DNA of 64,000 bases from Sulfurospirillum multivorans DSM 12446 (GTDB lineage Bacteria > Campylobacterota > Campylobacteria > Campylobacterales > Sulfurospirillaceae), in NCBI RefSeq assembly GCF_000568815.1, contig NZ_CP007201.1:2117654-2181653 (forward strand), in the 5' to 3' direction. Position 1 is the first letter of the stretch, and each line of letters begins with the position of its first letter. Of the stretch, positions 15,645 through 20,685 are shown in pieces. Both the position numbers and the translations under genes were made by a program. The notes below the pieces were generated by a model. That model searched no databases. It saw nothing but the letters and a program-made list of their open reading frames with translations, and had not been told where the DNA came from.

Positions 15645-15729
15645 CCCATCAAGATAATAGGTTAAAACGGATTAAAAGCTTATTAATGTAGAATAAGTTA
15701 TTAAAAATAACTCATACTAGGTGGATTTT

Positions 15730-16602
15730 ATGAAAGTCGGTCTCATCCAACACGCCGTTGAAAGTACCAAAGAAAAAACCATAGCCAAAACCGTTTCCCT
15801 CATACAAAAAGCCGCCAAACAAGGTGCTCAATTAGTCGTTTTGCAAGAGCTTCACCAAGACCGCTACTTCTGCATCAACGAAGATGTCGCTTGTTTTGAC
15901 CTTGCAAGCAATTGGGAAGAGGACATCGCGTTTTGGTCAGGCATCGCCAAAGAAAACAAAGTCGTTTTAGTCACCTCACTCTTTGAAAAACGCTCCGCAG
16001 GACTTTACCACAACACCGCCATTGTCTTTGAAAAAGATGGCACGATAGCAGGCAAATACCGCAAAATGCACATCCCTGATGACCCAGGATTTTACGAAAA
16101 ATTCTACTTCACCCCCGGTGATCTTGGCTACACCCCCATTCAAACCAGTGTCGGCAAACTAGGACTCCTCGTCTGTTGGGATCAATGGTACCCCGAAGCC
16201 GCTCGTTTGATGGCGCTTAAGGGTGCTGAAATGCTCATCTACCCCACCGCCATCGGTTGGTTCGATGAAGACGCCGAAGATGAAAAAACACGCCAATGCG
16301 ACGCATGGGAGACCATCCAACGCGGTCACGCCGTAGCAAATGGACTTCCCGTCATCAGCGTAAATCGCATCGGCAAAGAAGCGGACAATCATGGTGTACT
16401 GGACGGCATCCGCTTCTGGGGAAACTCCTTTGTCGCAGGACCCCAAGGCGAGATCATCGTACGTGCAAGCCACGACCAAGAAGAAGTGCTTATCGTCGAA
16501 GTCGATCTTGAAAGAGGCGAACACGTCAGACGCATCTGGCCATTTTTACGGGATAGAAGAATTGAGACATACGGGGATTTGACCAAGCGATTTATCGATT
16601 AA
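15730..16602 (+). CDS. aguB: N-carbamoylputrescine amidase
   Basis: Nitrilase-superfamily amidase that converts N-carbamoylputrescine to putrescine, CO2 and ammonia, completing the arginine/agmatine route to polyamines with AguA. The catalytic triad is visible: Glu in VVLQELHQDRYF, Lys in YRKMHIPDDPGF and Cys at about C149 in LLVCWDQWYPEAARL. Length 290 fits. The chosen ATG at 15730 follows AGGTGG; an in-frame GTG 9 nt upstream is less likely because it overlaps that site. Two palindromes follow the stop. Confidence 0.93.
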   Translation: MKVGLIQHAVESTKEKTIAKTVSLIQKAAKQGAQLVVLQELHQDRYFCINEDVACFDLASNWEEDIAFWSGIAKENKVVLVTSLFEKRSAGLYHNTAIVFEKDGTIAGKYRKMHIPDDPGFYEKFYFTPGDLGYTPIQTSVGKLGLLVCWDQWYPEAARLMALKGAEMLIYPTAIGWFDEDAEDEKTRQCDAWETIQRGHAVANGLPVISVNRIGKEADNHGVLDGIRFWGNSFVAGPQGEIIVRASHDQEEVLIVEVDLERGEHVRRIWPFLRDRRIETYGDLTKRFID

Positions 16603-16608
16603 AACCTT

Positions 16609-16642
16609 TTTACATGTAAAGACTCAAAGCTTTACATGTAAA
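16609..16642. repeat. Paired TTTACATGTAAA palindromes between aguB and the defence-like pair
   Basis: Full 12-mers at 16609-16620 and 16631-16642, centres 22 bp apart, fill the 54-bp gap after the aguB stop. They may terminate aguB transcription. The second ends 6 nt before the GGAG ribosome site of the ATPase gene. Confidence 0.85.
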
Positions 16643-16656
16643 CCTTTGGAGTGAGT

Positions 16657-18396
16657 ATGGAACTGGTTTATTTGTGGGTTGAAGAATATAAAAATATTAA
16701 AAATCAAGGGTTTAATTTTTCGCCTAGGTTTACATGTAAGTATGATAAAGATAAAAATGAACTCACGATTGAAGAGAAAAAAGACTATGTATCTATCTTT
16801 CCTGACAATATTAATATGACAGCGATTGTTGGAGAAAATGGAAGTGGGAAGAGTAGTATTAGTGGGTTATTAGTTGAATATTCTTACCAAGAATTTTCTA
16901 GTAATAATAAAAAAGGTTTTTTAGTTTTTTTTGATGGTGAGAAATTTTTATTTAAGCAAGGCTTTACAGGTAAAACATTAGATTTCAACATTCAAAACAA
17001 TACAGCTTATACGTATGAAAATCAAAATAAACCTAGGTCTATAGATACTATTTATTTTTCAAATGATGTCGCCTCAATATTTAATAATCCAGATTATGCA
17101 TTTAGATTACAAAGATATAGTCATCTCGACGCATATTATGAAGAAAAAAAAACTTTAATGCCTAGCAATAAATACATAACAAGTAATGAAAAAAAAGAAA
17201 AATTAGAAACATTTAATAAAAGATTGCAAAGTCTATTAAGTGAGGATGAAAAAATATTATCTTTTATTCAAAACAAACTTGTTTTTAATTCATATAAAAG
17301 AGAATTGCACTTTTATGAAATAGGAGCGTATATCACAGGAAATAAAGATTTTTTACAATTGTTAAATCTCGATAAGCTTTCTGGCAATACCGTTTTTAAA
17401 GATTCTATGGATTTAGAAGAGCATTTTCTTAAATTATTGATTTTATTTAGACTTAGAGAACATTTTTGGGATAATGAAGTTGGTGCAGTTATTAACTCTA
17501 TAAAAGATGAGTTTAATACAAAAAATTTTGAACTATCAAACTGTATGAAAATTTTTGAAGTCATAAATCCATATGATAAAAAAAATCATGTTTATACAAA
17601 AAAGAATATTCAAGATATTTTAGATAAATTTGAGTATTTAAAAAATGAGATTTGGGTTGAGAAAAAAACAAACACTATTAGTAGTATTTTTAAAACCTCA
17701 AATGAATTACTTAATATTTTATTGGAAAATATTAATAGAACAAATTATTTTAATAGTAAAGATTCTACTTATACTTATTTTTCACTAAGTTCAGGCGAAA
17801 GAGAATATATAAGCATATTCGTAGCATTTATACATCACTTAAAAAGAGTAAACAAGAATCTTAGTGTCTCAGAAAATGAATTTATTTTTTTATTTGATGA
17901 AATTGATTTAGGACTACATCCAAATTGGCAAAAAAATCTGATAAAAGATTTAATATATTTTGCCAAGAAAAATACAAATAAAAAAGTTCAAATAATTGTC
18001 ACTTCGCACTCTCCCTTTATTCTCTCAGATATACCCAAAGAAAATGTTATTTTTTTAGAAAACGGAAAACAAGTTTACCCCAATATCGAAACTTTTGGAG
18101 CCAATATCCATACCCTACTCTCGCATGGCTTTTTTATGAAAGATGGGCTTATGGGTGAATTTGCGAAAAGTAAAATCAATGAAGTAATTGACTATTTAAA
18201 CGGTAAAAATTCTCCCATTACCGATGATGACGAAGCACAAAGGTACATTCGCATCATCGGTGAGCCTATCGTCAAAAAACAATTACAGCGTATGCTTGAC
18301 AGTAAGAAATTGGACAAGATGAAAGAAATTGATGCACTTAAAAACCAAATAGAAAGCCTCCAAAGTCGCTTGGAAAATTTGGAAAAGAAATCATGA
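16657..18396 (+). CDS. AAA/ABC-type ATPase of a Septu-like (PtuA-like) two-gene system
   Basis: A 579-residue ATPase of the SMC/RecF-related AAA_21/OLD-like group. Walker A GENGSGKS is at residues 59-66, the ABC signature LSSGERE near 377-383, Walker B with catalytic acid FLFDEIDLGLHP (D414, E415), and the H-switch TSHSPF at 449-454. A long variable middle separates the two ATPase halves, and a charged coiled coil closes the C-terminus. It overlaps the HNH gene by 4 bp. ATPase plus HNH is the composition of Septu (PtuAB) anti-phage systems, so defence is inferred. G+C is about 17-28% up to about 18000, then jumps to 35-40%. The start is the ATG at 16657 after GGAG. Confidence 0.8.
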   Translation: MELVYLWVEEYKNIKNQGFNFSPRFTCKYDKDKNELTIEEKKDYVSIFPDNINMTAIVGENGSGKSSISGLLVEYSYQEFSSNNKKGFLVFFDGEKFLFKQGFTGKTLDFNIQNNTAYTYENQNKPRSIDTIYFSNDVASIFNNPDYAFRLQRYSHLDAYYEEKKTLMPSNKYITSNEKKEKLETFNKRLQSLLSEDEKILSFIQNKLVFNSYKRELHFYEIGAYITGNKDFLQLLNLDKLSGNTVFKDSMDLEEHFLKLLILFRLREHFWDNEVGAVINSIKDEFNTKNFELSNCMKIFEVINPYDKKNHVYTKKNIQDILDKFEYLKNEIWVEKKTNTISSIFKTSNELLNILLENINRTNYFNSKDSTYTYFSLSSGEREYISIFVAFIHHLKRVNKNLSVSENEFIFLFDEIDLGLHPNWQKNLIKDLIYFAKKNTNKKVQIIVTSHSPFILSDIPKENVIFLENGKQVYPNIETFGANIHTLLSHGFFMKDGLMGEFAKSKINEVIDYLNGKNSPITDDDEAQRYIRIIGEPIVKKQLQRMLDSKKLDKMKEIDALKNQIESLQSRLENLEKKS

Positions 18397-19235
18397 TAAA
18401 AATTGCTACGCCACATTTAGAAGAATTGGCACAAAAGCATTATGAAGCACTGAAATCAAAAATAAAATTTCCTACATGTAAATATTCTCTTGAAGAAGTC
18501 ATTACCGCCAAACCTGACAAACTGCATGAAATTGCGATGCACTATAAAGACAATCATAAATTTGATGTAATGAGAAAAGAGTACAAAAAATTTACCGTTA
18601 AAACAGATAATGATACATACGATGCCTATACGTTAGCGCAATCTCTTAACGTCACCGTTTGCCCGTATTGCAACCGAAATTATACGTTTACGGTTCGCTC
18701 TAAAAACGGCTCAACACGTCCGCAATTTGACCATTTTTACGACAAAGCGACGTATCCTATTTTGGCATTGTCGTTTTACAACCTCATTCCCAGTTGCCCT
18801 ACATGTAATGCAAGCATAAAAGGGCGCAAGGAATTTTCTCTTACGACACACGTGCATCCATACGTTGAAGGCTTCGATGACAAGGCGCGTTTTGCTTTAC
18901 ATGTAAAGGATAGTTCATTTTATTACGATGAAAAAGGGTTTGATTTAGAATTTGGCTCAAACGATGCCAAAGAACAAAAAAACATCGACGATTTTGCGTT
19001 GGAAGAGATTTATAAAAACCACAAAGACATCGTCTTAGAACTCATCCAAAAATCTGTGATGTACAACGAAAGTTACATCGAAGAGCTGATGAAAAACTAC
19101 GAGGGAACGCTTTTTAAAAATGAAGAAGATTTACTGCGGTTGATTTTTGGCGGTTACATCAGCGATGAAGACTTAGGTAAACGCCCTCTTTCCAAACTTA
19201 CCAAAGATATTTTAGAGCAGTTGGAGATTATCTGA
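18393..19235 (+). CDS. HNH endonuclease, PtuB-like partner of the ATPase
   Basis: A 280-residue protein with a zinc-stabilised HNH core: CPYC at 90-93, the metal/catalytic QFDHFYDK (D113, H114), an Asn in SFYNLIPSC and the second zinc knuckle CPTC at 135-138. The N- and C-terminal parts are mainly helical and unfamiliar. In Septu the HNH subunit is thought to degrade nucleic acid when triggered by the ATPase. The ATGA overlap indicates translational coupling and probable complex formation. Base composition is like the host chromosome, unlike most of the ATPase gene. It carries one exact palindrome (18897-18906) and two CTACATGTAA variants. Confidence 0.8.
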   Translation: MIKIATPHLEELAQKHYEALKSKIKFPTCKYSLEEVITAKPDKLHEIAMHYKDNHKFDVMRKEYKKFTVKTDNDTYDAYTLAQSLNVTVCPYCNRNYTFTVRSKNGSTRPQFDHFYDKATYPILALSFYNLIPSCPTCNASIKGRKEFSLTTHVHPYVEGFDDKARFALHVKDSSFYYDEKGFDLEFGSNDAKEQKNIDDFALEEIYKNHKDIVLELIQKSVMYNESYIEELMKNYEGTLFKNEEDLLRLIFGGYISDEDLGKRPLSKLTKDILEQLEII

Positions 19236-19347
19236 ACGCTTTACATGTAAAACACTCCGTATATGCTGGTGAAAAATAAACCACTCTATCGTTATATATT
19301 TATTAATACTATGATATACTTCTATTATCAATTTCGGGAGCATGACA

Positions 19348-19545
19348 ATGAGTGAACTTTATTCGATTTTTTTATCGGCGGTTTTTTCAAGTTTCATTGT
19401 AACGATGGGCATTGTAGCTGTTGTTGGGTCGTTGTATTACCTTACGTTTAAGTGTTTTGCTTCGTATATCTCGTTTGATAAAATTGCTCACAAGCACCAC
19501 TTAAATTCTAAAACATCAAACACTCAGGAAAATTCTGCACTTTAA
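19348..19545 (+). CDS. Small single-pass membrane protein, unknown function
   Basis: 65 residues with one hydrophobic helix (FIVTMGIVAVVGSLYYLTF) and a polar His/Lys/Asn-rich tail. Its own promoter is likely in the AT-rich 112-bp gap upstream. CGGGAG is 7 nt before the ATG at 19348; the ATG at 19342 is too close to it. No family recognised. Being next to the ATPase/HNH pair it could be an accessory factor, but the gap and separate ribosome site make that only a possibility. Confidence 0.5.
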   Translation: MSELYSIFLSAVFSSFIVTMGIVAVVGSLYYLTFKCFASYISFDKIAHKHHLNSKTSNTQENSAL

Positions 19546-19592
19546 TGTGCCTAACTATATTATTTTTTTACCCCAAATACTACCGTTCCCAA

Positions 19593-19622
19593 TTGACATT
19601 ACATAACACTCTGTGAGATAAT
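19593..19622 (+). promoter_or_regulatory. Promoter of the Mop-domain protein gene
   Basis: TTGACA at 19593-19598 and GATAAT at 19617-19622 with an 18-bp spacer. A consensus -35 is unusual in this window, suggesting strong expression. Confidence 0.5.
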
Positions 19623-19635
19623 TTTATTAACCATT

Positions 19636-19647
19636 AAGGGAACCCTT
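19636..19647. promoter_or_regulatory. Inverted repeat in the Mop gene leader (possible operator)
   Basis: AAGGG-AA-CCCTT lies 14-25 nt downstream of the -10 and 28 nt before the ATG. It could be a repressor site or a small RNA hairpin near the 5' end. No match to the ModE consensus is evident. Confidence 0.3.
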
Positions 19648-19674
19648 GATAGATCAAACATAAGGAAGTGTGTT

Positions 19675-20100
19675 ATGAAAATCAGTGCAAGAAATCAAAT
19701 CGTTGGAAAAGTATCTGAGATCAAAAATGGTCCTGTGAACAGTGAAGTGGTCGTTACAACAGCCAGTGGCGATAAAATCGTTTCTGTCATCACCAACAAC
19801 GCGGTTGAGACATTGGGTTTAAAAGTGGGTGTTGAGACGTTGTGTATCTTTAAAGCGCAAAGTGTTCTTCTTGCAAAAGCAGACATCGCTCTAGTCGTAA
19901 GTGCTCGCAATAAAATCAAAGGAACTGTGTCTGAGATCAAAGATGGCGCCGTTAATTGTGAAGTTATCATCACGACAACAACGGGTTTAACCGTCACTGC
20001 CATCGTCACAGAAGATGCGAAAAAAGAACTTTCTCTCGCAAAAGGTGACAGTGTTTATGCCATCATCAAAGCTTCAAGCATTTTAGTAGGCGTTAACTAA
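19675..20100 (+). CDS. Duplicated Mop (molybdate-binding TOBE) domain protein
   Basis: 141 residues made of two tandem Mop domains, about 1-70 and 71-141. The repeats are obvious: SARNQIVGKVSEIKNGPVNS and SARNKIKGTVSEIKDGAVNC. Mop proteins (ModG, molbindins) bind molybdate or tungstate oxyanions at subunit interfaces and buffer or deliver them in the cytosol. Two-domain forms such as ModG assemble as trimers. Molybdate storage is inferred from the family; no modABC genes are in the window. AAGGAAG precedes the ATG. The stop codon lies at the start of a palindromic terminator. Confidence 0.9.
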   Translation: MKISARNQIVGKVSEIKNGPVNSEVVVTTASGDKIVSVITNNAVETLGLKVGVETLCIFKAQSVLLAKADIALVVSARNKIKGTVSEIKDGAVNCEVIITTTTGLTVTAIVTEDAKKELSLAKGDSVYAIIKASSILVGVN

Positions 20101-20117
20101 GCGTTACATGTAACGCT
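20100..20117. terminator. Bidirectional terminator built on TTACATGTAA
   Basis: AGCGTTACATGTAACGCT is an 18-bp perfect palindrome (7-bp stem, CATG loop) followed by ATTTTT on the plus strand. It sits exactly between the convergent Mop and Nudix genes, overlapping both 3' ends by 1-2 bp. Confidence 0.7.
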
Positions 20118-20685
20118 ATTTTTCGTAGGTTTTAAAGTACCACATCAGCGCGAACATCAAGCCTGATGTGGTCGCGATGCTCTCATCAAACATAAACGTA
20201 AGCGCTTCTTCCCGTTTTAAGTAGATGACTTCGATATTTTCAGAATCAATACCGCCACCATCTCCCACTCTCATACTTTCATCAATACTCGCAAAATAAA
20301 AGGTTTGAAGTCCTCCTGCAAAACCAACCGCCGTATAAAAAGAGGTGACTTTTTGAAGTTCGTTGAGGGAAACATCATACCCTGTCTCTTCTAAAACCTC
20401 TTCTTGGGCGATTTCGATGAGGCTTTTGTTTTTATCGACGAGGCCTGCGCACAATTCATACGTAAAACCGTCGTTATTTTTGAGGTAAATGGAAGGGCGA
20501 AACTGCTTGACAAAGACAAACGAGTCTAAATCTTTGTGGTAGAGCAAAATGGCGACGCTATTGTGCGTGTCAACAATGTCCCAACGCTTTTCAACGCTGT
20601 TGTGCAAATAGTACATACTTTTAGGTTTGATGTAGTCTGAATGCAGACACTCTTCAATTTTAAGCACCTCAATCGTATGTTTCAT
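20116..20685 (-). CDS. Nudix hydrolase (nucleoside-diphosphate-sugar pyrophosphatase type)
   Basis: A 189-residue Nudix protein. AGLVDKNKSLIEIAQEEVLE followed by ETGYDV is the Nudix box: the metal-binding EEVLEE core is kept, while the usual first Glu is Lys and the usual Arg is Glu. That form is common in UDP-glucose/ADP-ribose pyrophosphatases of the NUDT14-like group. It presumably cleaves ADP-ribose or a sugar nucleotide in the cytosol. It is 4 nt downstream of corA on the same strand, so probably cotranscribed. Confidence 0.85.
   Translation of the reverse strand: MKHTIEVLKIEECLHSDYIKPKSMYYLHNSVEKRWDIVDTHNSVAILLYHKDLDSFVFVKQFRPSIYLKNNDGFTYELCAGLVDKNKSLIEIAQEEVLEETGYDVSLNELQKVTSFYTAVGFAGGLQTFYFASIDESMRVGDGGGIDSENIEVIYLKREEALTFMFDESIATTSGLMFALMWYFKTYEK

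Follow-up and report, generated by a model that had tools for sequence, protein, structure and literature searches.

A two-gene locus with overlapping ATPase and HNH genes

Analysis of the window (the whole 64,000-nt stretch of DNA studied, from a 3.18-Mb Sulfurospirillum genome) showed two adjacent genes on the forward strand. The first (16657 to 18396) encodes a 579-aa ATPase with a PtuA-like SMC/ABC-type head and a large insert, as judged from its open reading frame (ORF), PADLOC match, fold, and alignment, and the second (18393 to 19235) encodes a predicted HNH nuclease with a PtuB-like fold. ATG at 16657 is more likely to be the start of the ATPase than GTG at 16651 because the homologs start with MELVYLW. 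The two ORFs (16651/16657 to 18396 and 18393 to 19235) share bases 18393 to 18396, the same 4-bp overlap that had been pointed out in an earlier note on this DNA. Numbered from the methionine at 16657, the ATPase carries the Walker A motif GENGSGKS at residues 59 to 66, the signature LSSGE at 377 to 381, Walker B with D414-E415, and the H-switch TSHSP with H451, and the insert of ~300 aa between Walker A and the signature is real. All of these had been claimed in that note, and in an alignment of 62 relatives, residues G59, N61, G62, G64, K65, S378, G380, D414, and E415 do not vary. Similarly, C90xxC93, D113-H114, N130, and C135xxC138-N139 of the HNH protein are invariant across 70 aligned relatives. 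This agrees with the earlier reading of an HNH protein but not with its "two zinc knuckles," as the cysteines are best interpreted as a single four-cysteine zinc site that surrounds the HNH core. Finally, an ATPase ORF lies immediately upstream in 63 of the 79 relatives whose HNH ORF could be read, and the pairing is therefore not due to chance.

Family assignment by profile and fold

Both genes were matched best by the PDC-M62 models of PADLOC, the ATPase by PDC-M62A (3.5e-119 over 3 to 580) and the HNH protein by PDC-M62B (1.2e-87 over 23 to 279), with the PtuA and PtuB models trailing widely. The NCBIfam cutoffs for PtuA and PtuB (retron Ec78) were also missed, with 62.5 bits against 500 and 18.5 against 150, respectively. 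The same genome has a canonical Septu pair 320 kb away (G000:C1:2455725-2457041; PtuA of 439 aa and PtuB of 221 aa), which scores 2.3e-153 and 6.2e-71 with the PtuA and PtuB models, compared to 3.3e-26 and 3.8e-9 for the window pair. The earlier note had proposed a Septu-like system and a search against Septu profiles; the Septu-like character held up by both PADLOC and fold, and the match was to a candidate defense system, but the PDC-M62 models were far ahead of PtuA/PtuB, and the pair is PDC-M62 rather than canonical Septu. PDC-M62 is an unpublished, computational-only candidate system of PADLOC, and no paper testing it was found in the literature searched. It has the same two-gene layout, and its models cover nearly the full length of both window proteins; none of the searchable papers describes its fold assignment, the hotspot, or the exchangeable cassette. 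PADLOC calls of PDC-M62 overlapped with those of Septu when the Bacillus cereus group was surveyed (PMC11811056).

The AlphaFold model of the HNH protein had a pLDDT of 94.8. In the ATPase model, the head and tail were mostly above 90 and the insert was at about 30 to 65; with this low pLDDT and an input alignment that mixes unrelated inserts, the fold of the insert is not readable from the model. Compared with solved structures, the HNH model matched PtuB in eight entries (Z 12.3 to 10.9), the next fold being at 3.8, and the ATPase model was closest to retron and Septu PtuA (Z 18.9 to about 16), followed by AriA and Rad50/SMC heads (Z about 14 to 15). The nearest solved folds were the PtuAB effectors of type I-A retrons (Ec78/Eco7 and Ec83; Z 18.9 for the ATPase and 12.3 for HNH), but these retrons carry a reverse transcriptase and msDNA, and the window pair has neither. 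Septu PtuAB of Escherichia coli, likewise an ATPase with an HNH protein, matched at Z 17.8 (8ee4) and Z 11.6 (8eea_G), with about 20% (ATPase) and 15% (HNH) identity over the aligned parts. Unlike this system, the window pair has its own conserved tail, TFGANIHTLL...FFM.DG.MGEFAK, and far weaker PtuA/PtuB model scores. In AriA of PARIS and the Rad50/SMC heads, Walker A and the signature of the ABC-type head are likewise separated by a large insert, but these proteins score lower and their partners are Toprim AriB or Mre11/kleisin, whereas that of the window ATPase is an HNH protein. Canonical Septu PtuAB forms a PtuA-PtuB 6:2 assembly and has anti-phage activity. The profile and model comparisons assign the pair to PDC-M62, Septu-like and stand-alone in fold and architecture, and do not demonstrate strict membership in canonical Septu. 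The earlier reading is partly supported.

The pair occupies a variable chromosomal site

The locus was compared across 24 Sulfurospirillum genomes, one per species; at three sites, contig ends or gaps in the sequence hide what the interval holds. The left flank is a carbon-nitrogen hydrolase gene (AguB-like; 15721 to 16602, forward strand), present in 23 of the 24 genomes, and the right flank is a gene for a nudix-like protein, annotated by inspection (20116 to 20685, reverse strand), present in all 24. Between this AguB-type amidase and the nudix gene, 11 of the 24 species carry the pair; two of these have a broken ATPase, through a transposase-like gene (G002) or a frame break (G005), and three other species have short empty spacers of 24 to 55 bp. 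A comparison of presence and absence had been suggested in the earlier note, and what it showed is a patchy site whose occupant has a defense candidate as its best match, rather than a universally present gene pair of a nondefense family. Other cargos at the hotspot are AbiEi/AbiEii in G004, an MBOAT protein in G014, and an HSDR_N protein in G017. In G013, a C5 methyltransferase occurs beside a GHKL ATPase, and G003 has a Gp49/HigB-like toxin-antitoxin pair, as does G020 by position and sequence. For instance, in G016 the pair is replaced by a 478-aa protein (L027:1190-2623), with a 121-bp scar from the end of the HNH region. This protein had no PADLOC, Pfam, NCBIfam, or PDB match and is a candidate defense gene.

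The junctions of the site are also recognizable. At the left one (16610 to 16641), two copies of the palindrome TTACATGTAA lie directly 5′ of the ATPase gene, and this arrangement is kept before the pair and before several replacement cargos. The right one (19189 to 19251, forward strand) consists of the 3′ end of the HNH gene and one TTACATGTAA (19241 to 19250), and it is the scar that remains in G013 and G016, where the pair was replaced. In all, G004, G013, and G016 retain a remnant of the pair, either from its start (the leader plus the initial codons) or from the 3′ end of the HNH gene, and judging from these sequences the pair therefore probably sat at the hotspot in an ancestor and was then replaced several times.

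Several further features of the hotspot were apparent. First, the G013 cargo (L025:1267-6078) has three genes, encoding the C5 methyltransferase, a 728-aa GHKL-type ATPase with weak likeness to the BbrUII/HgiDII restriction enzymes, and an unmatched protein of 458 aa, and is possibly a restriction-like system. Second, an 8- to 10-kb island present in G012 (L024:1693-11269) and G004 (L015:3484-11800) resembles, on inspection of the translations, an operon for TonB-dependent uptake and ABC transport with a sigma factor. Third, a small membrane protein of 67 aa (19342 to 19545, forward strand, with a start at 19342 or 19348) occurs jointly with a two-domain Mop (molybdate-binding) protein at the hotspot (19342 to 20100 for both), whether or not the pair is present. 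The membrane gene, which the earlier note had left as a possible member, is not part of the system: it accompanies the Mop gene, occurs without the pair in G004 and G014, and is missing beside the pair in G021 and G022.

Relatives beyond the genus

At E ≤ 1e-30, PDC-M62A was found in 60 of 397 Campylobacterota species, distributed over 24 of 68 genera. The species-genome scan yielded 421 HNH relatives, 80 of which were kept, among them relatives from Bacteroidota and Paenibacillus. Relatives also occurred on plasmids, in 36 records; phage records gave one weak match, and a viral_contigs scan with the HNH protein gave no relative. The canonical Septu of the same genome, used as a control for insert exchange, had relatives (E ≤ 1e-40) in 7 of the 397 Campylobacterota species, which is a small sample. 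Second, divergent PDC-M62-like pairs occur elsewhere in G017 (L036:1006-3988) and G002 (L037:11-3431). Two contigs titled "Helicobacter pylori PMSS1" MAG (L122 and L138) carry PDC-M62 genes that are nearest to those of free-living Campylobacterota, and the title is probably wrong.

The ATPase gene is a mosaic with an exchangeable middle cassette

The ATPase gene consists of three segments, all read on the forward strand: a conserved head (residues 1 to 66; 16657 to 16854) that ends in Walker A (16831 to 16854), an exchangeable cassette (residues 67 to 449; 16855 to 18003) that contains the insert, the signature (17785 to 17799), and Walker B (17896 to 17901), and a conserved tail (18004 to 18396) that runs from the H-switch (H451 at 18007 to 18009) to a C-terminal coiled coil. 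Neither this mosaic structure nor the fixed hotspot had appeared in the earlier note. Over residues ~67 to 449, which begin right behind Walker A and end at the H-switch, the species differ almost totally, with inserts 11 to 28% identical compared to 86 to 92% for HNH. The five congeners that share the HNH type and have an unbroken ATPase were 77 to 87% identical to the window ATPase in the head (residues 1 to 72) and 14 to 23% identical in the insert (residues 86 to 375), the latter being equal to the background of shuffled sequences (mean 15.5, maximum 27). A two-state fit placed the borders of the swap at A67 to A69 and A448 to A449 in all five. In two genomes with other HNH types, G007 and G023, the same fit placed the border inside the HNH gene, at B222 and B262. 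The last quarter of the HNH protein in G007 and G002 is nearly identical to that of the window and the preceding part only about 40% identical, which by sequence marks a second recombination border. The GC content of the inserts is 22 to 28%, compared to 30 to 38% in the conserved parts, among the species of the main HNH type; that of the window insert is 22.7%.

The clearest example of exchange is the G006 insert. At 86% identity over its full length, it matches the insert of the Campylobacterales MAG L082; it is 56% identical to that of the Sulfurimonas MAG L092 but at most 28% identical to those of its congeners. Between G006 and L082, dS was 0.21 for the insert and 0.05 for the core (signature to H-loop), compared to 1.60 for the head, 1.34 for HNH, and saturation for the tail. 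Exchange of the cassette recurs in other Campylobacterota. For example, L084 and L106 share an insert at 86% identity and HNH at 46%, with dS of 0.10, 0.82, and 1.13 for the insert, head, and HNH, respectively, and the converse was found between L106 and L112, where HNH is 90% identical and the inserts are unrelated (23%). Among 44 systems, all 16 pairs with an HNH identity of at least 85% had insert identities of 11 to 28%. The trees conflict in the same manner. In a quick search, the six Sulfurospirillum rows formed one clade in the HNH tree with a support of 98, whereas they were scattered in the core tree, and constraining their cores to one clade was rejected, with a log-likelihood 96 lower and an AU test P of 4e-59. 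Rapid divergence in place was rejected, on the dS values and the AU test, as the source of the insert differences. The exchanged inserts stay open frames despite a raised dN/dS, which was 0.36 to 0.70 in the two closest pairs compared to about 0.1 for HNH within the genus. Over all pairs, the Spearman correlation of identities was 0.72 for tail and HNH and 0.33 for insert and HNH, the latter being only moderately lower because the majority of pairs lie at background level. The case for exchange rests on the dS and tree conflict and not on these correlations.

By these comparisons, lineages repeatedly exchanged the cassette that begins right behind Walker A and ends at the H-switch, and the head, the tail, and the HNH gene stayed. 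The window's own insert has weak relatives only (26%), and its exchange is therefore deduced from the pattern in the genus and not from a recent donor. As far as could be searched, a cassette delimited by Walker A and the H-switch that recurs across Campylobacterota is undescribed, while the fold and layout are known. The literature search gave nothing relevant on swapping or hypervariable inserts in Septu, which is weak evidence as subscription papers lay outside its coverage.

A possible sensor-effector defense system

The middle cassette is swapped while the nuclease stays, and the middle is therefore suggested as the virus-recognizing part. We consider the whole explanation, namely a Septu-like, stand-alone PDC-M62 pair that acts against phages with an exchangeable sensing insert and an HNH effector, to have a probability of about two-thirds. 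The more general proposal, that PDC-M62 is a defense system with a swappable sensor, in which recombination near Walker A and the H-switch draws on donors across the phylum, the nuclease and site stay fixed, and each species has its own specificity, stands in our judgment at even odds. The ATPase would restrain the HNH nuclease within an ATP-dependent complex, the exchangeable insert would sense an infection cue, and sensing would alter ATPase dimerization. The signal may then reach the HNH subunit by way of the conserved C-terminal tail; the tail is assigned this coupling because its similarity tracks that of HNH. The nuclease would then cut nucleic acid, either phage DNA or host tRNA as in characterized PtuAB, and phage production would stop. 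The insert may be replaced by recombination because it sets what is recognized. In type I restriction, the target recognition domains of HsdS are exchanged between conserved parts by recombination. The analogy is that a recognition part is exchanged between conserved parts, but that of HsdS reads DNA sequence, whereas that of PDC-M62 would sense an infection cue. The mechanism draws on characterized PtuAB, which cleaves tRNA-Tyr or reportedly degrades DNA and requires its Walker and HNH residues (PMC13096335, PMC11555353, PMC12948488). In one case, Walker and HNH mutants of Septu lost defense and tRNA-Tyr was cleaved (PMC13096335), and in another, PtuA and PtuB were toxic together and neither was toxic singly (PMC11555353).

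The sensor reading of the insert rests on the exchange pattern and on its place in the ATPase, and phage inhibitors might instead target the insert, or it might serve as an oligomerization arm. In the former case, the pair would be a defense system whose cassette is selected to escape phage-encoded inhibitors (anti-Septu proteins) and not to sense phages. Exchange and the raised dN/dS of the inserts would suit any attacked interface, and nothing speaks directly against this alternative; however, the cassette is a whole domain and not a surface, and it includes the signature and Walker B segments. We regard inhibitor escape as unlikely, though a serious contender. Distinctly less probable is a simple canonical Septu (PtuAB) in which the inserts differ through ordinary fast divergence of a noncritical coiled-coil region. 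The PtuA/PtuB fold matches and the overlapping PADLOC calls in another bacterial group (PMC11811056) fit it, but the PtuA/PtuB models score far lower. Its divergence part is refuted by the dS conflict, as the insert that is 86% identical, at dS of 0.05 to 0.2, to that of a bacterium with flanks at dS > 1.3 is nevertheless unrelated to the inserts of congeners, and by the rejection of a common descent for the core segments of the genus. A role other than against phages, such as exclusion of plasmids or mobile elements or a toxin-antitoxin-like addiction pair, appears similarly improbable. It would accommodate the fixed chromosomal site and the plasmid relatives, but repeated loss and replacement with scars speaks against strong addiction, and several of the other users of the hotspot are defense genes. 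That the two are retron effectors, with the reverse transcriptase lost or encoded elsewhere, is hardly credible and already largely refuted, even though the top folds include the PtuA/PtuB of retrons Ec83 and Ec78, because the only RVT_1 of the genome is 380 kb away in a 621-aa open frame, as the earlier note's stand-alone claim would have it, the window has no Rfam match, and the pair-carrying congeners other than G012 with its transporter island have no space for a reverse transcriptase between the flanks.

On the preferred reading of the insert as a sensor, its natural swaps bear on how Septu-like systems detect phages. Ready-made sets of alleles in which the insert changed and the nuclease did not are available, e.g., in G000, G012, G021, and G022. 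They also offer a possible rule for building chimeric defense systems, with a sensor cassette and an effector module bordered at Walker A and the H-switch.

An abundant palindrome at the junctions and across the genome

The 10-bp palindrome at the junctions of the hotspot is widespread. The window has 35 copies compared to 0.05 expected, and the genome has 1484 compared to 2 for a reversed control. Examples are those at 16610 to 16619, 16632 to 16641, 19241 to 19250, and 20104 to 20113, and copies sit both between and within genes. It is abundant in most Sulfurospirillum (49 to 1496 per genome in the genus) and in some relatives of the same family; a second family has a few genomes with up to 367 copies, and counts are near zero elsewhere in the sampled phylum. 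No paper on this sequence was found in the literature searched; it resembles a highly iterated palindrome or a DNA uptake sequence.
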